Assembly (NCBI RefSeq): GCF_006715305.1
Contig: NZ_VFMY01000002.1
Coordinates: forward strand, 261,901-325,900
Length of the DNA: 64,000 nucleotides
From: Arthrobacter sp. SLBN-100
GTDB lineage: Bacteria; Actinomycetota; Actinomycetes; Actinomycetales; Micrococcaceae
Direction: 5' to 3'
Part shown: positions 15,687-33,824 of the stretch, one piece after another
Layout: every line of letters starts with the position of its first letter
Numbering within the stretch: the first letter of the stretch is position 1
Notes under the pieces: generated by a model
Database searches by the model: none
Told to the model about the DNA's origin: nothing
Seen by the model: the letters and a program-made list of their open reading frames with translations, nothing else
Translations under genes and position numbers: made by a program

Positions 15687-15821
15687 GGGCCTAAATCCTT
15701 CGCGGGATGCACACCTGGAATCCACATAGCCCGCCCCACCGCTCCGGCACGAGATAGCGTCTCAGGCCAGCTCGGATGAGGAGCGGCGGTGTGGCACGAA
15801 AGCCCACTACTGGAGCCTCCT

Positions 15822-16247
15822 TTGAATCGAACAATCTTCAAATCAAAGATCCACCGCGCGACCGTCACGCACGCTGATCTGCACTACGTCGGCTCCGTCA
15901 CAGTTGACCTGGACCTGCTCGATGCTGCGGACATCCTTCCCGGCGAGTTGGTGGCCATCGTGGACGTAACCAACGGCGCCCGGCTGGAAACGTACACCAT
16001 CGCCGGGGAACGCGGTTCCGGAGTCATTGGCATCAACGGCCCAGCGGCCCATCTGGTGCAGGAAAACGACGTTGTCATCGTGATTACCTACGCCCAAATG
16101 ACCATCGAGGAAGCCAGGGTATACGAGCCCAAGGTGGTCCACGTTGATGAAAACAACAAGATAGTCCAGCTCGGCAATGATCCAGCCGAAGGCCTCACAC
16201 CAGGACTCCTCCGTCCGCCATACGCCCTGAACAACGCCACACTCTGA
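15822..16247 (+). CDS. panD: Aspartate 1-decarboxylase proenzyme
   Basis: Starts with TTG at 15822 (GGAG six bases upstream) giving [31 protein letters not shown]. The G-S bond in HYVGSVT is the self-cleavage site that creates the pyruvoyl cofactor. The rest ([14 protein letters not shown] [21 protein letters not shown] and AQMTIEEA) matches the small double-psi barrel; 141 aa is normal. It makes beta-alanine for pantothenate. It has been separated from panB, which is a pseudogene, by the prp operon. An upstream GTG at 15789 is possible but less typical. Confidence 0.9.
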
Positions 16248-16639
16248 ACCGGACCGCAAGGGCCAAACCCGGCGCACGCGTACTCCCTCCCCCGCCACCA
16301 CCGCTCCGGCGGCCCGTCGCACACCTTGGCGGTGCCCACGCTCGCCAAACCCTTCATACGCGTCCCAGATCGGGACAACGTCACTCTTGCCGGCTGAGTC
16401 ATCATGAGTGAAAGGATCAGCCGGATTTGGCGTCCCGGAAGCAAGGAGGTTTTGTGAGTCGCTACGCATGCGATTGGCGTCGGGCTGTTGCCACACGTTG
16501 TTACCTCAAAAGCTCATTTGCTGTCTGGTGAAAACCCTTCATGTCCTGCGGCGTTCCCAGACCCCAGTTCGCTCACCTCGGAGGAGATGGTAGTCGGATC
16601 ATGGTGCAAACAGTGGCTGGATTCCGCGAAGCCAGGACC
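16248..16639. other. Intergenic region, nothing identified
   Basis: About 390 bp between panD and the pntB remnant. Short frames exist but none resembles a protein. Confidence 0.4.
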
Positions 16640-17280
16640 ATGTACGACCCGCTTCCATGGTCTCCGGCGATGACAACCCCCGGACACCTGGTGGCCTCGA
16701 TCGGCGGCGGCGACATGCCCTTGGTCGTCTCCATGCTCAACAGCTACTCTGGTTGGGCCGCCGCCGCGGCGGGCTTCCTGCTGAACAACGACCTGCTCAT
16801 CATCACCGGCGCCCTGGTCGGTTCTTCGGGTGCGTACCTGTCCTACATCATGTGCAAAGCCATGAACCGGTCCTTCATCTCCGTAATCGCCGGCGGCTTC
16901 GGTATCTCAGCCCCCACTACCGGGGGAGACGCTGACCGGGGCGAGCACCCGTCGCCGCCCGACTGCCCGGGCACATGAACGTGCTCCTCGCCGAAGCTAA
17001 AGTCCCGTACGACATCGTTCTGGAAATGGACGAAATCAACGACGACCTCGACGGGACCTCCGTGGTCCTAGAGATCGGGGCGAACGACACCGTCAACCCC
17101 GCCGCCGCCGAGGACCCCTCCAGCCCCATCGCCGGTATGCCGGTCCTCAAAGTCTGGGAAGCAGACAACGTCATCGTCTTCAAACGGTCCATGGCCGCAG
17201 GCTACGCCGGTGTCCAAAACCCCCTCTTCTACCGCGAGAACTCACACATGCTCTTCGGCGACGCCAAAGCCCGCGTCTAA
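16640..17280 (+). pseudogene. pntB: NAD(P) transhydrogenase beta subunit, truncated with internal deletion
   Basis: Two frames. 16660-16930 gives [28 protein letters not shown] plus following membrane helices. After a deletion and frameshift near 16930-16975 comes [27 protein letters not shown], then [29 protein letters not shown] and [26 protein letters not shown]. These are the last membrane helices and the NADP-binding domain of PntB. The 5' half and the linker with the NADP-domain GYGMAVAQAQ motif are missing, so no proton-pumping transhydrogenase can form. Confidence 0.85.
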
Positions 17281-17755: not shown

Positions 17756-17795
17756 TTACTAGGAACACCTAGTAATTACTTGGACGTCCTAGTAA
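17756..17795. promoter_or_regulatory. Two abutting 20-bp palindromic operators upstream of etfB
   Basis: 17756-17775 is an inverted repeat with perfect arms TTACTAGG and CCTAGTAA around a 4-bp spacer. 17776-17795 directly follows with arms TTACTTGG and CCTAGTAA around ACGT. The 14-bp core of the second copy recurs exactly at 28827-28840 next to a marR gene, and a related pair lies at 20604-20643. MarR-type repressor sites, about 47 bp before the etfB start. Confidence 0.75.
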
Positions 17796-17841
17796 GATTG
17801 TTTTTGTTGTTGATCGATGAAGTTGGAGCAAAAGGAAACCC

Positions 17842-18615
17842 ATGAAAATCATCGTTCTTATCAAGCAGGTGCCCGACACCGCAGAGGAACGCCATCTCAA
17901 TCCTGCGACTGGCCGGCTTGATCGCGAGGCCAATGAAAGTGTGGCCGATGAAATCACCGAGCGCGGCCTTGAGGTCGCACTTCGCCACAAAGACGCGAAC
18001 AAAGGGTCCGAGGTAATAGTACTGACCGCGGGGCCCAGCTCGGCGACGCAGGCGCTGCGCAAGGCACTGTCGATGGGTGCCGATTCTGCGGTGCATGTCG
18101 TCGACGACCGTTTGGCGGGTGCTGACATTGCCATGACCGCTGCCGTCCTGGCTGCCGCCGCGAAACGTGCCGGTTTTGATCTACTCATCGCAGGGAACGA
18201 ATCGACCGATGGCCGCGGCGGAATTGTGCCGGCCATGGTCGCCGAGCATCTTAAATTGCCGTTGCTGCCTTCACTTACCACCGTGGAGCTGGCCGCGGAC
18301 CGCGTTTCCGGCGAGGTGGTACTGGAATCCGAGCGTATTAGCGTCAGTGCGGCCCTGCCGGCGGTAGTCTCCGTGACTGAATGGGTTGCCGAAGCCAGGT
18401 TCCCGAACTTCAAGGGCATTATGACTGCCAAGCGCAAGCCGCTAACGACGCTGTCCCTTGCCGAGCTCGAAATGGAGCCCGACATGGTCGGTGGCGGGTC
18501 GGTCGTACTTGGCGTTTCCGAGCGGCCCGCCAGGGCGGCGGGCAAGAAGGTTATCGATGACGGGACTGCGGCCCGCGAACTTGCAGACTTCCTGGCCGCC
18601 GAGCGCCTGATCTGA
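17842..18615 (+). CDS. etfB: Electron transfer flavoprotein beta subunit
   Basis: A protein of 257 aa beginning MKIIVLIKQVPDT, the standard EtfB start, with the AMP-binding/adenine nucleotide alpha-hydrolase-like fold and the FDLLIAGNESTDGRGGIVPAMVAEHL signature, followed by the C-terminal recognition region VTEWVAEARFPNFKGIMTAKRKP. With EtfA it accepts electrons from acyl-CoA dehydrogenases. A strong AAAGGAAACCC lies before ATG 17842. First gene of a three-gene unit behind the tandem operators at 17756-17795. Confidence 0.92.
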   Translation: MKIIVLIKQVPDTAEERHLNPATGRLDREANESVADEITERGLEVALRHKDANKGSEVIVLTAGPSSATQALRKALSMGADSAVHVVDDRLAGADIAMTAAVLAAAAKRAGFDLLIAGNESTDGRGGIVPAMVAEHLKLPLLPSLTTVELAADRVSGEVVLESERISVSAALPAVVSVTEWVAEARFPNFKGIMTAKRKPLTTLSLAELEMEPDMVGGGSVVLGVSERPARAAGKKVIDDGTAARELADFLAAERLI

Positions 18616-18628
18616 CTACGGAGCTGAA

Positions 18629-19606
18629 ATGAAGAATGTATTGGCACTGATTGAAACCACGCACGCCGGCGAGATCGCCGCCAGCGCGCAGGGGGTGATT
18701 GCTGCAGCCGCCAAGCTCGGCACTCCCGTGGCGGTTGTGGCAACGCGGCCCCAGGAGGGCGCGGCCCTGATTGCGCAGCTTGGGACCTTCGGAGCGCAGC
18801 ATGTCTATCTCGCCGAGAGCTCCCAAGTGGGGAGCGTGCTTGCGTCCGCCCAGGTGGAGGCGTTGATGTCTGCTGCCTGGGCCCTTGATCCGTCCGCTGT
18901 CGTCGCGGCCAACTCCGTCGCAAGCCGACAGATCGCGGCTCGGTTTGCGGTCCGCTCAGGTGGCGGGCTCCTGGTCGATGTCGTGGACGTCCGACCCTCA
19001 GATGACGGGTCGGCCATCGGTATTCACTCTGTTTTCGGTGGGGCCTACACAGTTGAAGCAACCGTGCAGTCAGGCCCTGCCGTCATCACTGTGCGACGGG
19101 GCGCGCTGGACGAAGAGCGTGCTGCCGCTGCAAACCCCGTGGTCACGACCGTGCAGCTGGATGGCCAGGCTGAAAGCTTCACCAGCATCGACACGGTGCA
19201 CGCTATAAGCTCCGATTCCAGCAGGCCCTCGCTGGGCAGTGCGGCCACGGTGGTATCAGGCGGAAGAGGCCTGGGGTCCAAAGAGAACTTTGAGCTGGTT
19301 GAGCGGCTTGCGGACATTCTTGGCGGCGCCATCGGCGCATCCCGCGCGGCCGTGGACGCCGGTTACGTCGACCAGGGGTTGCAAGTGGGCCAGACCGGCG
19401 TCACCGTGTCACCCCAGCTGTACGTAGCACTCGGGATTTCCGGTGCCATCCAGCACCGCGCCGGCATGCAGACCGCCAAGACCATCGTGGCCATCAACAA
19501 GGACGAGGATGCCCCCATCTTCGACGTGGCCGACTTCGGTATCGTCGGCGACGTCTTCACTGTGGTGCCGCAGCTGATAGAAGCCATTCAGGACCGCGCC
19601 AACTAA
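18629..19606 (+). CDS. etfA: Electron transfer flavoprotein alpha subunit
   Basis: A protein of 325 aa with the C-terminal FAD-binding half well conserved: [63 protein letters not shown] and [20 protein letters not shown]. Starts 13 bp after etfB, so the two are translated together. It carries the FAD that shuttles electrons from the dehydrogenase at 20679 to the membrane. Confidence 0.92.
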
Positions 19607-19639
19607 CACCCGCTGGCCGGCAGGAAAGGACCCCGAGCC

Positions 19640-20575
19640 ATGGCAACGACCACCAACAAAACCCCAACGAAGCCCGGCAACAGGTGGGCCAAACTGGCCA
19701 TGGCGATAACCCTAGCCGTAGCAGCCCTTGCTGCCATTGTGCTCATAGCACAGTGGATGCGGACACTCCCTCCCGTCCAGAACTTCCTGACGACATATCC
19801 CGGAACAGTGGACCTGCCCGAGGGTGCACCCCTTGGCTTGCCGCCCTGGCTGGGCTGGCAGCACTACCTAAACGCGTTTTTCCTGGTGCTCATCATCCGG
19901 TCCGGCTGGCTGGTGCGCACTACCGCCAGGCCCAAGGAACACTGGACCCGGAACAATTCAGGACCGATCAGGACGAGAGGAAAGCCGGCCAAGATCAGCC
20001 TGAACCTGTGGTTCCATCTGACTCTGGACGCCTTGTGGGTAACCAACGGAGTTGTCTTCATCATCCTTCTGGTGGTCACCGGTCAGTGGATGCGGATCGT
20101 TCCGACCAGCTGGGATGTATTCCCCAACGCCCTGTCAACGGCCATCCAGTACGCCTCATTGAACTGGCCAACAGAAAACGGATGGGTGAACTACAACTCG
20201 CTACAGGTGCTGGCCTATTTCTCGATCGTCTTCATCACCGCCCCGCTTGCACTCGTGACGGGACTGCGGATGAGCGGTGCTTGGCCGAAGAACGCCCACG
20301 TCCTGAACAAGATGTACCCGATCGAGGTGGCGCGGGCAATCCACTTCCCGGTCATGCTGTACTTCGTCGGGTTCGTAGTAGTTCACGTCGCGCTCGTCTT
20401 TGCCACTGGCGTCCTGCACAACCTCAATCACATGTACGCCTCCAACGATGGCGCCGGGTGGACCGGGTTTTGGATATTCGCCGCCTCCGTGGCCGTGATA
20501 GTCGCGGCGTGGTTCCTCGCCAGACCCCTGTTCCTGCGTCCGGTGGCTTCCATATTCGGCAAAGTCACCAGATAA
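19640..20575 (+). CDS. Multi-spanning cytochrome b-like membrane protein, candidate ETF partner
   Basis: A protein of 311 aa with about five or six hydrophobic segments (near 20-42, 72-88, 122-150, 190-210, 230-255, 275-295). Histidines occur at membrane borders in WQHYLNAFF, LWFHLTLDALW, ARAIHFPVMLYF and VVVHVALVFATGVLHNLNH, as expected for a di-heme cytochrome b (b561/b6-like) domain. It starts 33 bp after etfA with GGAAAGGA upstream. No ETF-quinone oxidoreductase gene is present nearby, so I infer that it helps move electrons from ETF to quinone; this is not established. Other possibility: cytochrome b subunit of an unrelated redox enzyme. Confidence 0.7.
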   Translation: MATTTNKTPTKPGNRWAKLAMAITLAVAALAAIVLIAQWMRTLPPVQNFLTTYPGTVDLPEGAPLGLPPWLGWQHYLNAFFLVLIIRSGWLVRTTARPKEHWTRNNSGPIRTRGKPAKISLNLWFHLTLDALWVTNGVVFIILLVVTGQWMRIVPTSWDVFPNALSTAIQYASLNWPTENGWVNYNSLQVLAYFSIVFITAPLALVTGLRMSGAWPKNAHVLNKMYPIEVARAIHFPVMLYFVGFVVVHVALVFATGVLHNLNHMYASNDGAGWTGFWIFAASVAVIVAAWFLARPLFLRPVASIFGKVTR

Positions 20576-20603
20576 ACGGGAAAACCATTGCGCTCCACCA
20601 CAA

Positions 20604-20643
20604 CTACTAGGAAGTCCTAGTAAATACTTTGGCTTCCTACTAT
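20604..20643. promoter_or_regulatory. Operator pair upstream of the acyl-CoA dehydrogenase operon
   Basis: 20605-20622 is an inverted repeat with arms TACTAGG and CCTAGTA around AAGT, matching the sites before etfB. A more degenerate second copy follows at 20624-20643 with the same 20-bp register. It suggests one MarR-type repressor controls both transcription units. Confidence 0.7.
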
Positions 20644-20678
20644 ATTTGATTGAACTCTACTTTTTGATGGGACCTGGC

Positions 20679-21815
20679 ATGTTTGAACTCAACGAAGACC
20701 AGCAGGCGCTGGTTGAAATGGTCCGGGACTTCGCCGCCGAAGTCCTCGCCCCGAACGCCGCAAAATGGGATGAGGCAAAGCATTTCCCGGTGGACGAGTT
20801 GCGCGAGGCCGGCGCCTTGGGCATGGGCGGCATCTATGTTCAGGAGGAGTTCGGCGGCTCCGGGCTGACACGCAGCGACGCAGTCCTGATTTTCGAGGAA
20901 CTGGCGAAGGCCGATCCCACGATCGCGGCCTACATCTCCATCCACAACATGGTGGTCTGGATGATCGACTCATTCGGGAATGACGAACAACGCGCAGCGT
21001 GGGTCCCTGAGCTGGCATCCATGCAGGCACTCGGAAGTTACTGTCTCACCGAACCCGGAGCAGGATCCGACGCTGCTGCGCTAAGCACCAAAGCGGTGCG
21101 TGACGGCGACGACTACGTGCTGAACGGCGTCAAGCAGTTCATCTCCGGCGCAGGAGCGTCAAGCTACTACATCGTCATGGCACGTACGGCTGACACAGGA
21201 AACCGGGGCATCACCGCGATTGTCGTACCAGCGGACACACCCGGCCTGTCCTATGGTGCGAACGAGAAAAAGATGGGATGGAACGCCCAGCCGACGCGGC
21301 AGGTAATCCTGGACAATGTCAGGGTTCCCGTGGCCAACCGGCTGGGCGAGGAAGGCGGCGGCTTCGGGATAGCGATGAAGGGACTCAACGGAGGCCGAAT
21401 CAATATGGGGGCATGCTCCCTTGGCGGCGGTCAGACTGCCCTCAATAAATCAGTGGCATATCTGAAGGAACGCCAGGCGTTCGGAGGTCCGCTGATAAAC
21501 CAGCAGTCGCTGCTGTTCCAGCTGGCTGACATGGAAACGCAGCTCGTCTCCGCCCGCACCCTGCTTTGGCGGGCAGCGGACGCACTGGACCGTGGGGCGC
21601 CGGACGCAGTCAAACTCTGCGCCATGGCCAAGCAGGTGGCAACCGACGCTGGCTTCAGCGTCGCCGACCGGGCTATCCAGCTCCACGGCGGATACGGTTA
21701 CCTGTCCGAATACGGCCTGGAAAAAATCGCCCGGGACCTGCGAGTGCACCAGATCCTCGAAGGAAGCAACGAGATCATGCGCCTGGTCGTTGGGCGAATC
21801 GTGGCCGGGGCCTAG
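20679..21815 (+). CDS. Acyl-CoA dehydrogenase, isobutyryl-CoA dehydrogenase-like
   Basis: A protein of 378 aa when started at ATG 20679 (MFELNEDQQALVEMVRDFA); ATG 20667 is also possible. All family signatures are present: GSYCLTEPGAGSDAAAL (FAD and substrate loop), the KERQAFGGPL helix, ADRAIQLHGGYGYLSEYGLEKIARDLRV and the QILEGSNEIMRLVVGR end, with the catalytic Glu in LEG. It oxidises a short branched acyl-CoA, most likely isobutyryl-CoA to methacrylyl-CoA judging by the hydrolase and mmsB downstream, and gives electrons to EtfAB. The next gene starts 2 bp after the stop. Confidence 0.85.
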   Translation: MFELNEDQQALVEMVRDFAAEVLAPNAAKWDEAKHFPVDELREAGALGMGGIYVQEEFGGSGLTRSDAVLIFEELAKADPTIAAYISIHNMVVWMIDSFGNDEQRAAWVPELASMQALGSYCLTEPGAGSDAAALSTKAVRDGDDYVLNGVKQFISGAGASSYYIVMARTADTGNRGITAIVVPADTPGLSYGANEKKMGWNAQPTRQVILDNVRVPVANRLGEEGGGFGIAMKGLNGGRINMGACSLGGGQTALNKSVAYLKERQAFGGPLINQQSLLFQLADMETQLVSARTLLWRAADALDRGAPDAVKLCAMAKQVATDAGFSVADRAIQLHGGYGYLSEYGLEKIARDLRVHQILEGSNEIMRLVVGRIVAGA

Positions 21816-21817
21816 AG

Positions 21818-22879
21818 ATGGAAAACGACGAAGTCCTGTTCCGCCACGACGGCCACCTGGGACACATCATTCTGAACCGACCTCAAGCGATCAACGCCTT
21901 AACCCACGCAATGGTCACCCGGATCGCCGCTGCCCTGGACGACTGGGAAAACGACGACTCAGTGGCCACGGTGTTGCTGAGTGGCGAGGGAGAACGGGGC
22001 CTGTGCGCGGGCGGTGACCTTCTAGCGATCCATCGGGACGCTGTGAACAAGGGCACTGGCACCGAGCGGTTCTGGGCTGACGAGTACCGCCTCAACGCCC
22101 GCATCGCCACCTATCCCAAGCCCTATGTCGCGATCATGGACGGGCTTGTACTCGGCGGCGGCGTAGGGGTTTCGGCCCACGGTTCTCTGCGCGTGGTGAC
22201 CGAGCGCACCAAGGTAGGTATGCCGGAGACCGGCATAGGGTTCGTCCCCGATGTCGGCGGAACCCACCTGCTCTCGAGGGCCCCCGGTGAACTCGGAACA
22301 CATGTTGCAATGACTGCAGCGAACATGTCCGGTGCGGACGCAATCGCACTTGGCTTTGCCGATCACCTCGTGAACAGTGAGGCGCTGCCTGCTCTGTTCA
22401 GGAAGCTCGCCGTAGCCACCGCGGAGGAAGCTGTGCTTTCCCTCGCTCTCACGTCCTTGCCGCCTGCGGGACTGGTTGCTGAACGCACGTGGATTGACGC
22501 CTGTTACGCCTTCGATTCCGTAGAGGAGATCCTTCAGGCACTGCGCGCCTCCCCCGTATCCGCAGCGCACGCCGCTGCTGACAAGATCCTGAAGAAGTCC
22601 CCCACGGCATTGAAGCTGACACTGGAATCACTGCGCAGAGCGCGTGCCTCCGGAAACCTTGAGGAAACCCTTGAAAGGGAATATCGGGTATCACTTCGCT
22701 GCCTTGCAGGTCGCGATCTCCCCGAAGGCATCAGGGCCCAAGTGATCGGCAAGGACCGCCGGCCACAGTGGTCACCCGCTGAGTTGGAGGCAGTCTCGGA
22801 GGCCGATGTGTCAGCTCATTTCGCTCCTTTGGGCGCCCGAGAGCTGGGCCTTACCAATGCTTCACACGCGACTGCCTGA
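21818..22879 (+). CDS. 3-hydroxyisobutyryl-CoA hydrolase (crotonase fold)
   Basis: A protein of 353 aa from ATG 21818, two bases after the dehydrogenase stop. It has crotonase motifs with HIBCH character: GERGLCAGGDLLAIH (oxyanion hole), GLVLGGGVGVSAHGSLRVVTE, and MPETGIGFVPDVGGTHLLSR with the Glu and Asp used by the hydrolase. Its long C-terminal part (about 250-353) is typical of HIBCH and absent from plain hydratases. It releases 3-hydroxyisobutyrate from its CoA ester in valine/isobutyrate breakdown. Confidence 0.85.
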   Translation: MENDEVLFRHDGHLGHIILNRPQAINALTHAMVTRIAAALDDWENDDSVATVLLSGEGERGLCAGGDLLAIHRDAVNKGTGTERFWADEYRLNARIATYPKPYVAIMDGLVLGGGVGVSAHGSLRVVTERTKVGMPETGIGFVPDVGGTHLLSRAPGELGTHVAMTAANMSGADAIALGFADHLVNSEALPALFRKLAVATAEEAVLSLALTSLPPAGLVAERTWIDACYAFDSVEEILQALRASPVSAAHAAADKILKKSPTALKLTLESLRRARASGNLEETLEREYRVSLRCLAGRDLPEGIRAQVIGKDRRPQWSPAELEAVSEADVSAHFAPLGARELGLTNASHATA

Positions 22880-22930
22880 GTATTACGACCGACAACTGCG
22901 CGGGAAGAGCGCAAAAGAAAAGGAAATTCG

Positions 22931-23842
22931 ATGAGTAAGAAGATCGCCTTCATTGGGCTGGGCCACATGGGTGGCCCTATGGCCGCCAACCTGGTCAAAG
23001 CTGGTTACCAGGTGTCCGGCTTTGACCTCTCAGCGCAGGCACTGGAGGAAGCGCGGGCACTGGGTGTAGCCGTGTCAGAATCTGCCCGCGGTGCCGCCGT
23101 GAATGCCGATGTAGTCATCACCATGCTCCCCGCCGGCCGCCACGTGATTAGCGCCTACCAAGGCGAGGACGGGCTTCTGGCCGCGGCCAGACCCGGAACC
23201 CTGTTTTTGGAATGCTCGACGATTGCAGTTGAAGACGCACAGTCCGCGCACAATCTGGCCGCTGCAGCCGGGCATCGGAACATGGACGCCCCGGTCTCGG
23301 GGGGCGTCGGAGGGGCAACCAACGGTACCTTGACCTTCATGGTCGGGGGCAACACCGAAGACTTCGCAGATGCCGAGCCAATTCTGCAGGCGATGGGCCA
23401 GAGGGTTGTGCTTTGTGGCGGATCCGGCGCCGGGCAGGCCGCGAAAATCTGCAACAACATGATCCTGGGGGTGTCAATGATCGCCGTGTCCGAGGCCTTC
23501 GTCCTGGGCGAGAAGCTGGGCCTGTCCCACGAGGCATTGTTCGACGTCGCCTCTAATGCTTCCGGCCAGTGCTGGGCCCTGACCACCAACTGCCCCGTCC
23601 CAGGACCGGTACCGGCCAGCCCCGCGAACCGGGACTATCGGCCCGGCTTCGCCGGGGCGCTGATGGCCAAGGACCTCGGCCTTGCCGTCCAGGCCCTTCA
23701 ATCGACCGGGGTCCAGGCCCGGCTCGGTTCGCTGGCCGAGGAGATCTACCGGGACTTCGCCGCCGGCGAGGGGGCGGGCCGGGACTTCTCCGGCATCATC
23801 AACCAGATCCGGTCCACCTCCAAGACAAAGGAAACAGTATGA
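22931..23842 (+). CDS. mmsB: 3-hydroxyisobutyrate dehydrogenase
   Basis: A protein of 303 aa of the beta-hydroxyacid dehydrogenase family. N-terminal Rossmann [20 protein letters not shown] (about 6-25), substrate-binding [23 protein letters not shown] (about 118-140), catalytic Lys in [21 protein letters not shown] (about 171). It oxidises 3-hydroxyisobutyrate to methylmalonate semialdehyde with NAD. The last codons overlap the next gene through ATGA, which points to translational coupling. Confidence 0.9.
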
Positions 23843-24615
23843 GCGAGTACCAGACCATCCTCATCAAGCAGGACGGACGGGTCGGGACCATCACGCTGAA
23901 CCGGCCCGAGGCGCTGAACGCCCTGAACCAGGAGCTCGCGACCGAGGTCCTGGCTGCCGCACAGGCCTTCGACCGCGATCCCGGCATCGGAGCCATTATC
24001 ATCACCGGCTCGGACCGGGCCTTCGCCGCCGGGGCGGACATCAAGGAAATGGCGCCGCGGTCCTACATCGACATGTATACCCAGAACTGGTTCGCCGCCT
24101 GGGACGAGCTGGCGAGGGTCCGGACCCCGCTGATCGCCGCCGTCGCCGGGCATGCCCTCGGCGGAGGCTGCGAGCTGGCGATGATCTGCGACTTCATCAT
24201 CGCCGCGGACAACGCCAAGTTCGGACAGCCCGAGATCAGGCTCGGGGTGATCCCGGGCATGGGCGGATCCCAGCGGTTGACCCGGGCGATCGGTAAGGCC
24301 AAAGCCATGGAAATGGTGCTCACGGGCCGGACCATGAGTGCCGAGGAGGCCGAACGCGCCGGCCTCGTCGCCCGGGTTGTGCCCGCCGCGGGGCTGATAG
24401 AGGACGCGCTGGCCACGGCCGCGACGATCGCCTCCATGTCCAAACCGATCGCGCTGCTGGCCAAGGAAGCCGTCAACGCCGCGCACGAGATGTCACTGGC
24501 CGACGGCGTGCATTTCGAGCGCCGCCTGAACCATTCCTGCTGGGCCACCGACGACCAGAAGGAAGGCATGGGTGCCTTCATCGACAAGCGCGCCCCGGAA
24601 TTCACCCACCGCTGA
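23839..24615 (+). CDS. Enoyl-CoA hydratase
   Basis: A protein of 258 aa whose ATG (23839-23841) overlaps the mmsB stop. Motifs: [29 protein letters not shown] and [19 protein letters not shown] with both hydratase glutamates in place. Length and motifs match short-chain enoyl-CoA hydratases. In this operon it would hydrate methacrylyl-CoA to 3-hydroxyisobutyryl-CoA, ahead of the hydrolase. Higher GC than the genes to its left, perhaps a separate origin. Confidence 0.88.
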
Positions 24616-24688
24616 CACCCGCCGCTGAGACAGGCGCCGGCAGCAGCCGCCCCGGCCCGTGGCCCCACTATTTTGAAGACGAGGAACC

Positions 24689-26188
24689 ATGACCGAAGTA
24701 AGTGTTGACCCCCGAACAGGCTCCATCCTGGAGTTTACCGACCATCTCATGTGGATCGACGGCGAACGGACCGAGGCCACGACCGGTCAGTGGCGCGAGG
24801 TGAAGAACCCCGCCGTCCGCGGTCAGGTGATCGCCCGGGTGCCCTCCGCCGGGGTCGAGGACGTCGAGCGCGCGGTCACCGCCGCACGCCGGGCGTTTCC
24901 GGGATGGCGTTCGGTGCACTTCACCGAACGTGCCCGGGTGCTGGCGAGGATCGCCGACGACATCGAAGCTCGGGCAGAGGAGTTTGCTCGGCTGACCGCA
25001 CTGGACACCGGCAACGCCCTGCGCACCCAGGCCCGCCCCGAGGTTGCCACGCTGGTGGCGCTCTTCCGCTACTTCGCCGGCGTGGCCGGGGAGGTCAAGG
25101 GCACCACGCTGCCGGCCGGGGACAAGCAGCTGCAGTACACCAGGCTGGAACCCCTCGGCGTCGTCGCTGCCATCCTGCCTTGGAATTCTCCGCTGATGAT
25201 CGCCGGGTTCAAGATCCCCGCGGCACTTGCCGCCGGCAACACCGTCATCCTGAAGGCCGCCGACGACGCACCCCTAACGATCCTGCTGCTGGCCGAAATC
25301 TGCAACCGGCACCTGCCCGCAGGCGTTGTCAACGCATTGACCGGCCGCGGCGGAGTGATCGGCGAGGCACTGTCAACCCATCCCGGAGTTGACAAAGTTT
25401 CCTTCACTGGATCCACGGAAGTCGGCCGCGGCGTCGCCCGCCAGGCAGGTGGACGGCTCGCCCACGTGTCTCTGGAATTGGGCGGCAAAAATCCCTCCAT
25501 CGTGTTCCCCGACGCCGTCGATGACGAGCTGATCGACGGACTGCTATCAGCCTCCCGGTTCACACGCCAAGGCCAAAGTTGCACCGCCGGATCCCGGCTG
25601 TTCCTGCACGAGGACATCTACGACGAGGTGCTAGAACGCCTTGTGGCCAAGCTCGGCGCGCTCAAGGTGGGAAATCCCCTAGATGAAGCAACTGACATGG
25701 GCGCCGTCATCAACAACAACCAGTTCAACCAGATCAGCAGCTATTTGGAAGAGGGCAGGAACCACAAGGACCTTACGGTCGCACTCGGCGGCAACGTGCC
25801 CACCGAGGGTCCACTGACCGAGGGCTACTACCACCTGCCGACCGTCTTTTCAGGGGTCCGGAATGACTTCCGCCTCGCGCAGGAAGAGATTTTCGGCCCG
25901 GTCTTGGCCGCGATCCGCTGGAAGGACATCGATGAGGTGGTGGCCATGGCGAACGACTCGCACTTCGGTCTTGCCGCCTACGTGTGGAGCCATAACCTGG
26001 ACAATGCCCTGAACACCGCGCACCGGGTCCAAGCCGGCTGGGTGCAGGTCAACCAGGGCGGCGGGCAGCTGGTGGGCCAGTCCTACGGCGGCTACAAGCA
26101 GTCCGGCATCGGCCGCGAGGTTTCCCTGGAGGGCATGCTGGCCGGGTTCACCCAGACCAAGCAGATCAACGTCAAGCTCAGGGGCTGA
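24689..26188 (+). CDS. NAD(P)-dependent aldehyde dehydrogenase
   Basis: A protein of 499 aa with ILPWNSPLMIAGFKIPAALAAGNTVILKA (cofactor site), FTGSTEVGRGVARQ, the general-base Glu in LELGGKNPSIVF and the catalytic Cys in GQSCTAGSRLF. The Glu argues against the CoA-acylating methylmalonate semialdehyde dehydrogenase (MmsA) type, which lacks it, so an ordinary aldehyde-to-acid enzyme is more likely, for example isobutyraldehyde to isobutyrate. Only 2 bp separate it from the CoA-transferase gene. Confidence 0.85.
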   Translation: MTEVSVDPRTGSILEFTDHLMWIDGERTEATTGQWREVKNPAVRGQVIARVPSAGVEDVERAVTAARRAFPGWRSVHFTERARVLARIADDIEARAEEFARLTALDTGNALRTQARPEVATLVALFRYFAGVAGEVKGTTLPAGDKQLQYTRLEPLGVVAAILPWNSPLMIAGFKIPAALAAGNTVILKAADDAPLTILLLAEICNRHLPAGVVNALTGRGGVIGEALSTHPGVDKVSFTGSTEVGRGVARQAGGRLAHVSLELGGKNPSIVFPDAVDDELIDGLLSASRFTRQGQSCTAGSRLFLHEDIYDEVLERLVAKLGALKVGNPLDEATDMGAVINNNQFNQISSYLEEGRNHKDLTVALGGNVPTEGPLTEGYYHLPTVFSGVRNDFRLAQEEIFGPVLAAIRWKDIDEVVAMANDSHFGLAAYVWSHNLDNALNTAHRVQAGWVQVNQGGGQLVGQSYGGYKQSGIGREVSLEGMLAGFTQTKQINVKLRG

Positions 26189-26190
26189 CC

Positions 26191-27438
26191 ATGGAAACCA
26201 CGACGACCGCAACAGTGGAAACAGCCGGGCCACTGGACGGAATCACCGTGCTGGACCTCAGCCGCGCCCTCGCCGGTCCCTATGCCACCGCGCTGCTCGC
26301 GGACATGGGCGCAAGCGTTATCAAGGTCGAGTCGATCAAAGGCGGAGACTCGTCCCGCTCATGGCCCCCGTTTGAAAACGAGCACAGCCTCTACTTCGAC
26401 TCGGTCAATCGCGGAAAATCCTCCGTTGCCATCGATTTCTACAGCCCGGAGGGTAAGGACCTGCTTCGAAAGCTGGCACTGGAGGCGGACGTGCTGATCG
26501 AAAACTTTCGGCCCGGGGTCCTGACGACCATGGGCCTGGATCCCGAGGCGCTACGGGCAATTAAACCAGGACTGATAATCGCCTCTGTCACCGGATTCGG
26601 CACCACCGGACCTCTCGCCCGGACCGCGGGCCTGGACCAGGTCGCCCAAGGAATGTCCGGACTCATGTCCGTGACCGGCGGCGACGCAGGGAACATGTAC
26701 CGGTTCGGCGTGCCTATCGTTGACATGTGCGCCGGGATCTTCACCGCCTACGGCATCGCCTCCGCCCTCACCGGTCGTGCCCGAACCGGGGAGGGGCTGG
26801 ACATCTCCACATCGCTGCTGGAAACGGCCCTGGCACTGTCGGCGTTCCAGGGGCAGCGCTACCTCAGCAACGGCGAGGTTCCCGTGCCGCAGGGCAACGA
26901 CCACCCGGTGCTTGCCCCCTACGGGGTCTTCAAAACCGCCGACATCCCTGTCATTATTTCTGTCGGCAACGACAAGCAATGGCTCCAACTCTGCGCCCTC
27001 GTCGGCGATCCGGCCCTGGCCCAGGACCCGAGCTACATGACCGGACGGGACCGGTCAATTAACCGCCAGGCGCTGGCGGGGCGGCTCGAGGACCTCCTCA
27101 AAAAGCGCCCGGGGCTGGAATGGCTGGAAGCCTTCCGCGCCGCGAAAATCCCTTGCGGCCCGATCTACAACTACGCCGAGGTCTTTGCCGACCCGCAGGT
27201 GCAGGCGGTTGACATGGTCCGCACGGTTAGCCGCTACGACGGTACCGAACTGCCTCTGCTGCGCGGCCCGCTCTCCGTCAATGGCGAGCCCACCCCGGTA
27301 ACCAAGGCCCCGCCGGCACTGGGCGAGGATACCCGCCGAGTCCTTCAGGATCTTGCTTTGACACCCGGGCAGATTGAGAAGCTCGTAGCGTCCGGCATTG
27401 TCCGTGAAACGACAGCTCTGGGCACGGTGCATGCATGA
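26191..27438 (+). CDS. CaiB/BaiF family CoA-transferase
   Basis: A protein of 415 aa in class III of CoA transferases. Key parts: LSRALAGPYATALLADMGASVIKVES at the N-terminus, NRGKSSVAIDF, and the catalytic Asp in VPIVDMCAGIFTAYGI (about 178). It would move CoA onto an acid, plausibly the product of the preceding aldehyde dehydrogenase, to feed the acyl-CoA dehydrogenase. Coupled to the following gene by overlap of its stop with an ATGATG. Confidence 0.85.
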   Translation: METTTTATVETAGPLDGITVLDLSRALAGPYATALLADMGASVIKVESIKGGDSSRSWPPFENEHSLYFDSVNRGKSSVAIDFYSPEGKDLLRKLALEADVLIENFRPGVLTTMGLDPEALRAIKPGLIIASVTGFGTTGPLARTAGLDQVAQGMSGLMSVTGGDAGNMYRFGVPIVDMCAGIFTAYGIASALTGRARTGEGLDISTSLLETALALSAFQGQRYLSNGEVPVPQGNDHPVLAPYGVFKTADIPVIISVGNDKQWLQLCALVGDPALAQDPSYMTGRDRSINRQALAGRLEDLLKKRPGLEWLEAFRAAKIPCGPIYNYAEVFADPQVQAVDMVRTVSRYDGTELPLLRGPLSVNGEPTPVTKAPPALGEDTRRVLQDLALTPGQIEKLVASGIVRETTALGTVHA

Positions 27439-27458
27439 TGGTGGCAACGGAGGAAAAA

Positions 27459-28244
27459 ATGACGGCTTCCCTGCGCGTCGAACGCTTAGGCGCCGTAGCG
27501 ACAATTGTGATTGACAACCCCAGACGCCGCAACGCACTGAACCAAGACATGTGGCAGCAGTTCAAACCAATACTGGATCAGTTGGATGGGGATCCCACTG
27601 TCAAGGTTGTGGTGGTCCGCGGCGCCGGAAGCAACTTTTCCGCCGGAGCCGACATCAGCGACCTCTTGGCCATCCTGCACGACCCGGAAAGCGGTGCGCA
27701 CGACGGTGGTCATGTGTCAGCGGGCGAGAACGCTCTGGCCAACTTTCCCAAACCCACTATCGCCGCAATTGATGGCTATTGTATCGGGGGTGCCTGGCAA
27801 ATTGCCGGCGCATGCGACATCCGTCTGGCATCCGAGAGTGCAACCTTTGGCATCACTCCCGCCAAAGTCGGCATCATCTACCCGCTCTCGGGCATAGAAC
27901 GCCTCGTTCGCCTCGCTGGGCCAGCGGTCGCAAAGTACTTGTTGTTTACCGGCGATTTTATCTCAGCTCCTGAAGCGCTGAATTTCGGACTAGTTTCCCG
28001 CTTAATCCCGCAGGCCGGGTTCTGGGACGAGATCCAGAAGTTTACTGACGAACTTGCCAAGCGTTCGCAGCTGTCCATCCAGGCCACAAAGCAGATTGTC
28101 GAAGCCATCGCAGTGAATGATCCCGGAGTCCCTGAAATAAGCGACTATTGGCAAGATCAGATGGCCATAAGCGGGGAAGCTGAAATCGGCATCCGTGCCT
28201 TCCTCGACAAGGAGACGCCGGCGTTCAATTGGATCAAACCATAA
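27459..28244 (+). CDS. Enoyl-CoA hydratase/isomerase family protein with atypical active site
   Basis: Start placed at ATG 27459 because GGAGG lies five bases upstream; an ATG at 27435 also overlaps the CaiB stop. 261 aa, crotonase fold: FSAGADISDLL, AIDGYCIGGAWQIAGACDIRLA, then FGITPAKVGIIYPLSGIERLVR. The usual catalytic glutamates (in GGGxE and PE..LG) are replaced here by alanine/tryptophan and T-P-A-K, so it may be an isomerase, decarboxylase or hydrolase rather than a hydratase. Last gene of the operon, stopping directly against the convergent marR gene. Confidence 0.8.
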   Translation: MTASLRVERLGAVATIVIDNPRRRNALNQDMWQQFKPILDQLDGDPTVKVVVVRGAGSNFSAGADISDLLAILHDPESGAHDGGHVSAGENALANFPKPTIAAIDGYCIGGAWQIAGACDIRLASESATFGITPAKVGIIYPLSGIERLVRLAGPAVAKYLLFTGDFISAPEALNFGLVSRLIPQAGFWDEIQKFTDELAKRSQLSIQATKQIVEAIAVNDPGVPEISDYWQDQMAISGEAEIGIRAFLDKETPAFNWIKP

Positions 28245-28817
28245 CTAGATGGGGAAGCCCGTCTCCACGAAATCGCCCGCATCATGACGGAAGCGGCCCA
28301 GGACCTGGTTCAAGCCGTCTATTTCAAGCGCGTTGAATCCGGGCTTTGTAAACACCTCAGCATTCAAATCAAGGGTTGCCCCCTTCACTGCCTCCCGTCC
28401 TTCCGGGGTGATTTCAACTAGCTTGGTACGGCCGTCTGCGGGGTGCGCCGCGCGTCGGACAAGGCCGGCGCGTTCCAATCGGTCAACCGTATTGGTGACG
28501 CTTGTAGGATGCACTTGCAAGCGCGCGCTGGCCTTCGCCATCGGCAAAGAACCGTCTTTGGTGAAACTAAGCAGTGCCAACAACTCAAAGCGGGCGAACG
28601 TAAGGCCGTGGGCCTTCAGGACCGCGTCAATCCGCGCCAACAGAATTTGCTGCGTCCTCATGATCGAGGTAACAGCTGCCATTCCGTCGGCCGCCTCGGA
28701 CCAGCCGTGTTCCTGCCAATGACGCCTCGCTTCGGCGATTGGGTCCATTCGGAGGGGAACAGAATCCGTCACGTTTCGCTCCTCAATGTCTCGACTGACC
28801 GAACATCCAATTTTCAC
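28245..28817 (-). CDS. MarR-family repressor, likely regulator of the etf/isobutyrate regulon
   Basis: A protein of 190 aa, with winged helix at about 75-145: LTFARFELLALLSFTKDGSLPMAKASARLQVHPTSVTNTVDRLERAGLVRRAAHPADGRTKLVEITPEG. Flanking helices form the dimer domain. It lies tail-to-tail with the catabolic operon. A 14-bp operator core 10 bp upstream of its start is identical to one before etfB, so autoregulation plus control of the two plus-strand operons is the simplest model. By analogy with phenylacetyl- and coumaroyl-CoA MarR proteins, the ligand may be an acyl-CoA. Confidence 0.85.
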   Translation of the reverse strand: MKIGCSVSRDIEERNVTDSVPLRMDPIAEARRHWQEHGWSEAADGMAAVTSIMRTQQILLARIDAVLKAHGLTFARFELLALLSFTKDGSLPMAKASARLQVHPTSVTNTVDRLERAGLVRRAAHPADGRTKLVEITPEGREAVKGATLDLNAEVFTKPGFNALEIDGLNQVLGRFRHDAGDFVETGFPI

Positions 28818-28826
28818 ACGAAAAGG

Positions 28827-28840
28827 TTGGACGTCCTAGT
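28827..28840. promoter_or_regulatory. MarR operator core upstream of marR
   Basis: TTGGACGTCCTAGT is identical to 17780-17793 in the second etfB operator. It sits just upstream of the start codon at 28817, where bound repressor would block its own transcription. Confidence 0.65.
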
Positions 28841-29209
28841 GGAGTCGACCGGGTCTCGCTACTTGGTTTTTCAAAGAGCCGTTCTACTCGCTTTTGCCGG
28901 AGTCCCAGCCGGAGGCAGACCGAAAGTCTAAGTCCATGTCGGAGCGCCTACAGGTTCAGGGGCCTGACGTGTTCCCAGGCCAGCATGAGCGTCGGCGTAC
29001 AGGGCGTTCCTCTATTGCTCACATGTCTGCTGGCTTCACCGGCGCATCAAAGGCCTGACTGGACTAGGGTGCGTGGAGATAGTTAAGTGGGCATGTTCTG
29101 GTTCATGCTTCTGGACCTTCTTTACAGTACTGGCCATGATCACGGCACTGGGCCGCGGATGTGTCGGCCATTGCCGTGTGCCGGGAAGTCCGGGGATGTA
29201 ACAGGCTCT
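28841..29209. other. Intergenic region, nothing identified
   Basis: About 370 bp between two marR genes on the same strand. No gene or strong hairpin that I can support. Confidence 0.4.
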
Positions 29210-29716
29210 CTAGGGCAGGTGGTCCATGGCTTCGCAGGGGCTGGACCCGGGCTGTGATCGGTGGACGTTCATGGCCAGGCGGGCGATCAATGCGACCAAG
29301 GTCTCTGCTTCAGAGTCCTTGAGTCCGGACAGCAGCCCGGATTCGGCCGTTGCCACCCGCTCCTCATATTGAGCCAGGATTTCAAGGCCCATCTCGGTGG
29401 CCACGATTTTGCGTGCTCTGCGGTCCGAAGGGGCCGGGACGCGGTCGACCATTCCGGCGTCCACGAGGGAGTCCAGCAGGTAGGTCAGGACCGTACGATC
29501 GATGGCTAGATGGGAGCCGAGGGATTGCTGGTTGGGTGGGTCACGGTGAATGACAGTGGAGAGTATCTGGTAACCGCGGATTCCTGCCGGCATGCCCTCT
29601 ACTGCCTCTTCGAAGCGGGACTGGTAGCCGCGCAGCACCATGCCCAAATGCCAGCCCAGGTCACCGGGCGCTGCGGCGACGGGGCTCTTCCGAATGGCTT
29701 GCGTGCTCTCAGTCAT
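29210..29716 (-). CDS. MarR-family regulator, divergent from a luciferase-like monooxygenase
   Basis: A protein of 168 aa with the winged helix around residues 50-115: QILSTVIHRDPPNQQSLGSHLAIDRTVLTYLLDSLVDAGMVDRVPAPSDRRARKIVATEMG. A palindrome (29725-29740) lies just upstream of its ATG in the gap it shares with plus-strand redox genes. It likely represses itself and the LLM-type gene at 30155. MarR proteins in this context often sense the small molecule that the neighbouring enzyme transforms. Intact. Confidence 0.8.
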   Translation of the reverse strand: MTESTQAIRKSPVAAAPGDLGWHLGMVLRGYQSRFEEAVEGMPAGIRGYQILSTVIHRDPPNQQSLGSHLAIDRTVLTYLLDSLVDAGMVDRVPAPSDRRARKIVATEMGLEILAQYEERVATAESGLLSGLKDSEAETLVALIARLAMNVHRSQPGSSPCEAMDHLP

Positions 29717-33308: not shown

Positions 33309-33824
33309 ATGGACTCCGCTGAGACAGCTGCTCCCGATGACGTTACCTCCGAACTGGACCGCCCTCCCCTAGGCACCCTCGCGGGAGTTCTGCACCGTGC
33401 ACTTACCCATCACGTCGCCCAGCGAATCGAGGATATCGGGGGATCGGTCACCCGTCCCGCGCACCTCTATGTGCTGCGGGCGCTGAGCCCCGACAGTGCC
33501 AGTGTGACCGAGCTCGCGGAGCGGTGCGATGCCTCGAAGCAAGCGATCAGCCAGGTTCTCGACGTGCTCGATCGCCTGAACCTGACCCGGCGCGTGCGAG
33601 ACCCCCAAGACGGCCGGGGCAAGCTGGTGGAGCTGACACCGGAGGGGCGGGAGGCGCTGGCGGTGGCCGTGCGGGCGTGGGGTGACGTCGAGCGCGAGTG
33701 GGCCGACCTGATCGGCGGCCAGTCCGAGATGCAACGTGTGCGGGAGGCAATGCTGTCGTTCGTGGAACGTCACGGCGACTACCGGCGCGGCGACCGACAC
33801 CCCCGGATCCGCCCCATCTGGTAG
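33309..33824 (+). CDS. MarR-family regulator (paralog of the one at 50141)
   Basis: A protein of 171 aa. Winged helix: RPAHLYVLRALSPDSASVTELAERCDASKQAISQVLDVLDRLNLTRRVRDPQDGRGKLVELTPEGREAL. It shares RPPLGTLAGVL, KQAISQVLD and the REAML/REAMF...RYGDY-RP-W tail with the MarR at 50141-50686, so the two are recent paralogs. It lies beside ADH and SDR remnants and may have regulated the FAD-dehydrogenase operon ending at 35084. It could bind the GTGACG-NN-CGTCAC motif at 36982 or 53485. Confidence 0.82.
   Translation: MDSAETAAPDDVTSELDRPPLGTLAGVLHRALTHHVAQRIEDIGGSVTRPAHLYVLRALSPDSASVTELAERCDASKQAISQVLDVLDRLNLTRRVRDPQDGRGKLVELTPEGREALAVAVRAWGDVEREWADLIGGQSEMQRVREAMLSFVERHGDYRRGDRHPRIRPIW

Follow-up and report, generated by a model that had tools for sequence, protein, structure and literature searches.

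Local control of branched-chain or acyl-CoA catabolism is exerted by regulators of the BkdR type and the CouR/HcaR type, and CouR and its relatives are MarR proteins that are released by acyl-CoA thioesters. The MarR regulator considered here is encoded in a 64,000-nucleotide stretch of DNA from Arthrobacter sp. SLBN-100 (the window), together with palindromic operators and a gene cluster for branched acyl-CoA breakdown; it differs from BkdR, which belongs to another family, and from CouR and HcaR, which have other substrates. SCO3205 and other MarR regulators share with it the MarR fold and a palindromic operator near their own gene and targets, but SCO3205, as portrayed in the accessible part of its description, belongs to another subfamily and has another operator (PMC3737563). 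MmsR of Pseudomonas likewise controls mmsA-type valine breakdown, but it appears in the available text as a LysR-type activator of an unrelated protein family (PMC6441110).

The nearest relative of solved structure is SCO5413 of Streptomyces coelicolor (PDB 4b8x), which matches residues 29-170 of the window MarR at 144.2 bits, the next chain reaching 43.5 bits. The MarR domain itself is recognised by PF12802 (44.4 bits, cut-off 27) and PF01047 (36.9 bits, cut-off 24.6), and the recognition helix region VHPTS(V/I)T, likewise shared with SCO5413, is conserved in 11 of 11 aligned members; judged by these comparisons, the window MarR is a member of the SCO5413 family. For genes near-identical to SCO5413, this operator recurs upstream of an acyl-CoA mutase gene; unlike these loci, termed Streptomyces-type because their proteins are 86-96 percent identical to SCO5413 and fall under a single genus label, the plasmid loci described below have tandem operators and an oxidative pathway. 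The title of the structure paper, as it stands in citing reference lists, has SCO5413 as a protein "of unknown function". SCO5413 also figures among the chromatin immunoprecipitation sequencing targets of NdgR, which regulates how branched-chain amino acids are made, in the accessible portion of that study (PMC4340878), and this targeting gives an independent hint of a branched-chain role. No link of SCO5413 or its operator to valine or isobutyryl-CoA was found in the available text of the open-access literature searched (PMC3737563, PMC6767563, PMC10731712, PMC12838073, PMC9739823, PMC4340878, PMC4848846, PMC4162614), subscription literature lying outside the scope of the search.

We read the window MarR, with good confidence, as a repressor of isobutyryl-CoA/valine metabolism whose release is triggered by isobutyryl-CoA or an acyl-CoA close to it. 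The connection between MarR family, operator and pathway is well supported by conservation; DNA binding, repression, cross-talk and the ligand are what we infer. The product of 28245-28772 would be a dimeric repressor of the SCO5413 family. Upstream of etfB and of the acyl-CoA dehydrogenase gene it would bind the palindrome TTACTAGGNNNNCCTAGTAA, most often found here as an adjoining pair with a 20-bp step. In the bound state it would prevent isobutyryl-CoA derived from valine or isobutyrate from being oxidised to a product at the level of propionyl-CoA, and accumulated isobutyryl-CoA, or a similar acyl-CoA from the same pathway, would bind the protein and release it from the DNA. The operators of the window, scored with the site matrix, are as follows.

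17756..17775, operator 1 upstream of etfB, TTACTAGGAACACCTAGTAA, 31.6 bits
17776..17795, operator 2 upstream of etfB, abutting operator 1, TTACTTGGACGTCCTAGTAA, 31.7 bits, 46 bp to the etfB start
20604..20623, operator 1 upstream of the acyl-CoA dehydrogenase gene, CTACTAGGAAGTCCTAGTAA, 30.7 bits
20624..20643 (C2:282524), weaker operator 2 upstream of the acyl-CoA dehydrogenase gene, ATACTTTGGCTTCCTACTAT, 22.0 bits, 35 bp to the start
28823..28842, minus strand, degenerate operator upstream of marR, CCACTAGGACGTCCAACCTT, 6.7 bits

A palindrome search of the window with at most 3 mismatches returned 3 sites, each on both strands (6 matches; 0.05 expected from shuffles). The two abutting 20-bp palindromes that a first-pass annotation of this DNA had placed before etfB (17756-17795) are present, as is the related pair that it saw before the acyl-CoA dehydrogenase gene (20604-20643). 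Its 14-bp core before marR is indeed identical to part of the second etf site (the exact 14-mer TTGGACGTCCTAGT occurs at 17780 and again at 28827), but the surrounding palindrome is degenerate.

The genome comprises a 325.9-kb contig (C2, the plasmid), the end of which is the window, and a 4.6-Mb contig (C1, the chromosome). The matrix was built from 14 paired C2 sites, the high scores of which are due to this construction; scanned over C2 it gives 15 matches at 22-33 bits, and the next best place reaches only 10.4 bits. The fifteenth match (C2:131413), absent from the training set, scores 23.4 bits, and 20 column-permuted palindromes found 0-5 places each at 11 bits or more. The sites of C2 thus comprise this single site and seven tandem pairs, which start at the following places.

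C2:6700/6720
C2:136364/136384
C2:155385/155405
C2:158596/158616
C2:161499/161519
C2:279656/279676
C2:282504/282524

On the chromosome, TACTWGGNNNNCCTAGTA has no match with fewer than 2 mismatches; four places match with 2, one of which precedes mmsA. This chromosomal site (C1:3568942; 20.5 bits, 48 bp upstream of mmsA) is weaker than the C2 sites, and a second one, of 12.5 bits, lies ~50 bp upstream of the chromosomal MarR start. On the full replicon, a scan of which had been proposed as a check, nothing of similar score to the 15 strong sites occurs elsewhere. The same scan contradicts the claim that all targets lie in one 11-kb block: five more pairs and the single site are found on C2, in addition to the site before chromosomal mmsA. 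Among the outlying operators, C2:131413 precedes a thiolase-cofE-cofD run, and the pair at 136364-136403 (locus L020) lies ~430 bp before npdG and fbiC; genes of coenzyme F420 may belong to the regulon. The thiolase copy behind another pair (C2:155487-156657; locus L021) matches the C2:6805 homologue as two overlapping pieces and looks interrupted.

The association of operator and MarR was surveyed in 81 genomes of the genus, of which 66 carry the MarR, 67 carry mmsA and 63 carry a site at 1 mismatch or fewer. Such a site occurs in 61 of the 66 MarR-bearing genomes vs 2 of the 15 MarR-less ones (Fisher p 2e-9), while the reversed-pattern control does not track the MarR (48/66 with it, 11/15 without it). 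The two MarR-less genomes with a site are G820, in which the site is unlike the others, and G832, an incomplete genome. Raw site counts are not distinctive, the reversed pattern also giving 0-4 matches per genome, and the genus argument therefore rests on the MarR association and on position: all 30 sites fetched from the places listed in the genus scan precede mmsA (24), etfB (3), an acyl-CoA dehydrogenase gene (2) or a cytochrome b gene (1). The regulon proposed earlier for ETF (electron transfer flavoprotein) and branched acyl-CoA breakdown accordingly stands in its ties to the MarR family and to pathway genes; its single regulator and single block do not.

The near-constant joint inheritance of MarR and mmsA in the genus would also suit an unrelated transcription factor, co-inherited with the valine genes, that binds the palindrome and leaves the MarR link merely positional. 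Such a factor is scarcely credible, given that the sites track the MarR across orders with different neighbours (a mutase, mmsA, or IcmF far from marR), that several sites precede marR itself and that G360, the sole genus genome with mmsA but without the MarR, has no site.

Beyond the genus, the MarR is found at E 1e-30 or better in 216 of 395 genomes of the family, and the tandem 38-bp pattern (at most 3 mismatches) in 37 of the 395, the reversed control in none. Of 80 named loci, the 74 of at least 9 kb were scored; a site of at least 14 bits is present in 50 of these (60 permuted motifs: mean 1.2, largest 8), including Nocardia, Mycobacteroides, Cryobacterium and Arthrobacter, mostly before an mmsA-type gene or etfB/acyl-CoA dehydrogenase where the locus has these. 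At class level, an SCO5413-type protein is encoded in 266 of 394 genomes, and 14 of 20 hand-picked marR loci have a site of at least 17 bits (100 permuted motifs: mean 0.02, largest 2); operators of the TTACTAGGACGTCCTAGTAA type near marR are thus common to the window and these 14 loci. In whole-genome scans of 19 class genomes at 1 mismatch or fewer, 14 genomes had sites, 22 in all, and 1 of the 19 matched the reversed control.

Of the 21 sites examined among these 22, ten are near marR, and the others precede genes for the E1-alpha subunit of a 2-oxoacid dehydrogenase (4), IcmF (4), an acyl-CoA dehydrogenase (2) and 3-hydroxybutyryl-CoA dehydrogenase (1); the twenty-second is C1:819622 of genome G471. 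Behind the marR-near site, 5 of 5 tested loci encode the large subunit of an acyl-CoA mutase, which at 565-575 aa has the size of IcmA; one of these loci (L220) was found by the matrix alone. SCO5415 we take to be icmA. The fused IcmF behind the site exceeds the IcmF cut-off in 3 of 3 tested cases, and the fourth was assigned by BLAST and length. The E1-alpha sites lie ~190-230 bp upstream of the gene, which is followed by that for E2; 2 of 2 tested E1-alpha genes match TIGR03181 (named pyruvate dehydrogenase by NCBI) and are probably bkd. For two of the four sites the target is ambiguous, as a response regulator gene runs in the opposite direction from that region. The genes behind the operators vary between orders and yet converge on making or using isobutyryl-CoA. 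A repressor that isobutyryl-CoA or a similar acyl-CoA releases is the economical reading.

The same regulator and operators could respond to another inducer, such as butyryl-CoA, methacrylyl-CoA, propionyl-CoA or a 2-oxo acid. Isobutyryl-CoA mutase interconnects isobutyryl-CoA and n-butyryl-CoA, and in the class 3-hydroxybutyryl-CoA dehydrogenase and thiolase-SDR genes stand behind some of the sites, so that this is a serious possibility; we nevertheless consider it the lesser one, since isobutyryl-CoA is the metabolite common to most of the examined sites (mutase, IcmF, mmsA operon and E1-alpha). An activating instead of repressing role at the tandem sites is very unlikely. The operators lie 35-158 bp before the start codons, where no sigma-70 promoter was found, as an activator might have it, but the single sites of IcmA-type loci overlap the start codon or end ~10-30 bp from it, which is typical of repression.

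Extending the preferred reading of an isobutyryl-CoA-released repressor, we lean, by a modest degree, towards the SCO5413 family being a class-wide isobutyryl-CoA sensor in Actinomycetes, with one operator from Arthrobacter to Streptomyces and Nocardia, that sets flux at the branch point of valine carbon. If so, it would act on supply (2-oxoacid dehydrogenase), oxidation (mmsA, acyl-CoA dehydrogenase and ETF) and isomerisation to butyryl-CoA (IcmA and IcmF), and thereby govern the units with which polyketides and branched fatty acids are started and extended. In Streptomyces-type genomes, polyketide antibiotics and branched fatty acids are built from precursors that the targets provide, and an SCO5413-type regulator would be a handle on this supply. 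A widespread regulator with a solved structure and no function assigned in its title thus gains a testable operator, regulon and candidate ligand.

The 20-bp register of the pairs, also noticed in the first-pass annotation, was borne out on C2 (7 of 7 pairs) and in the named loci, where the spacing count was limited to loci not selected by spacing. Here 61 sites of at least 18 bits have 16 companions of at least 10 bits, 15 at 20 bp and 1 at 23 bp (L161, Mycobacteroides), and no more within the range of 13 to 80 bp; 10 bits is reached by just 96 of 1.41 million positions. Looser thresholds raise the counts to 20 and 3, and then to 26 and 6. A first count (67 at 20 bp, 1 at 23 bp) was discarded, as 30 of its loci had been chosen by the 20-bp tandem pattern. 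Two dimers on one helix face would be a fair inference from this spacing. A pair is not required, as most operators next to marR in Streptomyces-type loci, and most of those upstream of mmsA in the genus, are single.

Instead of one MarR, the genome carries three paralogues: that of the window, a second plasmid copy (C2:172325-172858) and a chromosomal one (C1:3574152-3574652), the last being 65 percent identical to the window MarR. The start of the window gene, earlier put at 28817, is probably 28772, where a GTG stands behind GAGGAG and which agrees with the paralogues. The chromosomal gene sits behind mmsA, hydrolase, 3-hydroxyisobutyrate dehydrogenase and hydratase genes, the mmsA product being MMSDH (647 bits vs cut-off 448). 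The second plasmid copy belongs to a paralogous cluster at C2:158686-172858, whose products are identical to those of the window at 74 (etfB), 78 (etfA), 81 (cytochrome-like), 93 (acyl-CoA dehydrogenase), 79 (hydrolase), 82 (3-hydroxyisobutyrate dehydrogenase), 90 (hydratase), 90 (aldehyde dehydrogenase), 87 (CoA-transferase), 78 (crotonase) and 71 (MarR) percent. Among 45 MarR proteins placed on a tree, that of the window clusters with the proteins of Arthrobacter sp. ISL-28 and MYb23 (support 100/99). The second plasmid MarR joins ISL-30, EPSL27 and G383 (100/99), and the chromosomal one falls among those of genus chromosomes (100/98); since their MarRs fall in different groups, the two plasmid clusters look separately inherited. 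The plasmid thus shows a catabolic regulon in two separately acquired copies, the regulators of which probably cross-talk. Within the second cluster, an 18-residue marR remnant lies at the expected place of marR (C2:169173-169226; L022:9174-9227), followed by a partial CoA-transferase and an extra crotonase copy (C2:171183-172252; L022:11184-12253) and then by the present marR; the remnant and the extra copies appear to be traces of past rearrangement.

As the recognition helix region is identical among the three paralogues, the two plasmid MarRs probably share the operators of both plasmid clusters. This identity, and the fact that the window marR has largely lost its own operator, would also fit operators read by the second plasmid MarR or the chromosomal one, with the window MarR minor or degenerate. 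We regard this as unlikely, the window marR being an intact frame that is retained with the cluster in relatives L093 and L094. The site before the window marR lies ~50 bp upstream of the revised start codon, and single sites at the same position in relatives score higher (L093 18.3, L095 25.2 and L096 26.7 bits); because these better sites occupy the same place, autoregulation is likely ancestral and weakened here. L094, L097 and L100 show no site upstream of marR, and inspection by eye found no operator upstream of the second plasmid marR.

Several points weigh against a MarR repressor released by isobutyryl-CoA. The site before the window marR is weak, no sigma-70-like promoter emerged from scans of the three window sites, and the ligand is proposed from the shared substrate only. 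Two of the C2 sites, preceding F420 genes or thiolase, fit the pathway less well. At 1 mismatch or fewer, 5 of the 66 MarR-bearing genus genomes lack a site, and the joint gain or loss of MarR and mmsA makes site co-occurrence in the genus partly a matter of cluster inheritance. Furthermore, no site of at least 17 bits is present in 6 of the 20 class loci (L212, L217, L218, L223, L224 and L225); in 4 of these cases the genome has a site elsewhere.

The genes of the window cluster are listed below, with profile scores and curated cut-offs.

17842..18615, plus strand, electron transfer flavoprotein beta subunit (etfB), all NCBIfam ETF-beta models below cut-off
18629..19606, plus strand, electron transfer flavoprotein alpha subunit (etfA), models below cut-off
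19640..20575, plus strand, membrane protein with a weak cytochrome b561 match (PF01292, 27.9 bits, cut-off 30.1)
20679..21815, plus strand, acyl-CoA dehydrogenase, best model AcrC (370 bits, cut-off 640)
21818..22879, plus strand, 3-hydroxyisobutyryl-CoA hydrolase (NF004127, 436 bits, cut-off 274)
22931..23842, plus strand, 3-hydroxyisobutyrate dehydrogenase (TIGR01692, 401 bits, cut-off 292)
23839..24615, plus strand, enoyl-CoA hydratase (NF004517, 429 bits, cut-off 396)
24689..26188, plus strand, aldehyde dehydrogenase, not of the CoA-acylating MMSDH type (TIGR01722, 250 bits, cut-off 448; PF00171)
26191..27438, plus strand, family III CoA-transferase (CaiB type), by profile matches
27435..28244, plus strand, crotonase-fold enzyme, every named model below cut-off
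28245..28772, minus strand, MarR regulator of the SCO5413 family, 175 aa with the revised start (PF12802, PF01047, 4b8x match)

Curated cut-offs are thus passed by the hydrolase, the 3-hydroxyisobutyrate dehydrogenase and the one enoyl-CoA hydratase, while ETF, acyl-CoA dehydrogenase and aldehyde dehydrogenase match general models without reaching the specific cut-offs. By context, the acyl-CoA dehydrogenase is probably an isobutyryl-CoA dehydrogenase, and the cytochrome b561-like membrane protein, for which no NCBIfam match was found, is a possible quinone-side electron acceptor. A methylcitrate cycle set directly upstream (PrpB 394 bits, cut-off 354; methylcitrate synthase 642, cut-off 479; PrpD 856, cut-off 950) fits propionyl-CoA as the product. 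At 24689-28244 and in the second cluster, the plasmid has the non-MMSDH aldehyde dehydrogenase, family III CoA-transferase and crotonase where the chromosome has CoA-acylating mmsA, and the plasmid route may possibly run by free methylmalonate and methylmalonyl-CoA. The crotonase of 27435-28244 was tried as a methylmalonyl-CoA decarboxylase and is not supported as such (130.6 bits vs cut-off 257).

Terminator scans at the three window sites found nothing. Between the prp genes and etfB lie panD (15789-16247; 165 bits, cut-off 106) and, at 16541-17280, short frames that by eye resemble pieces of a pntB-type transhydrogenase, longer frames of which type occur on C2 near 8.9-11.9 kb and 178-181 kb. 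The window also holds two more, unrelated MarR genes (29210-29716 and 33309-33824), the second of which has a 60 percent identical copy at C2:312044-312526.

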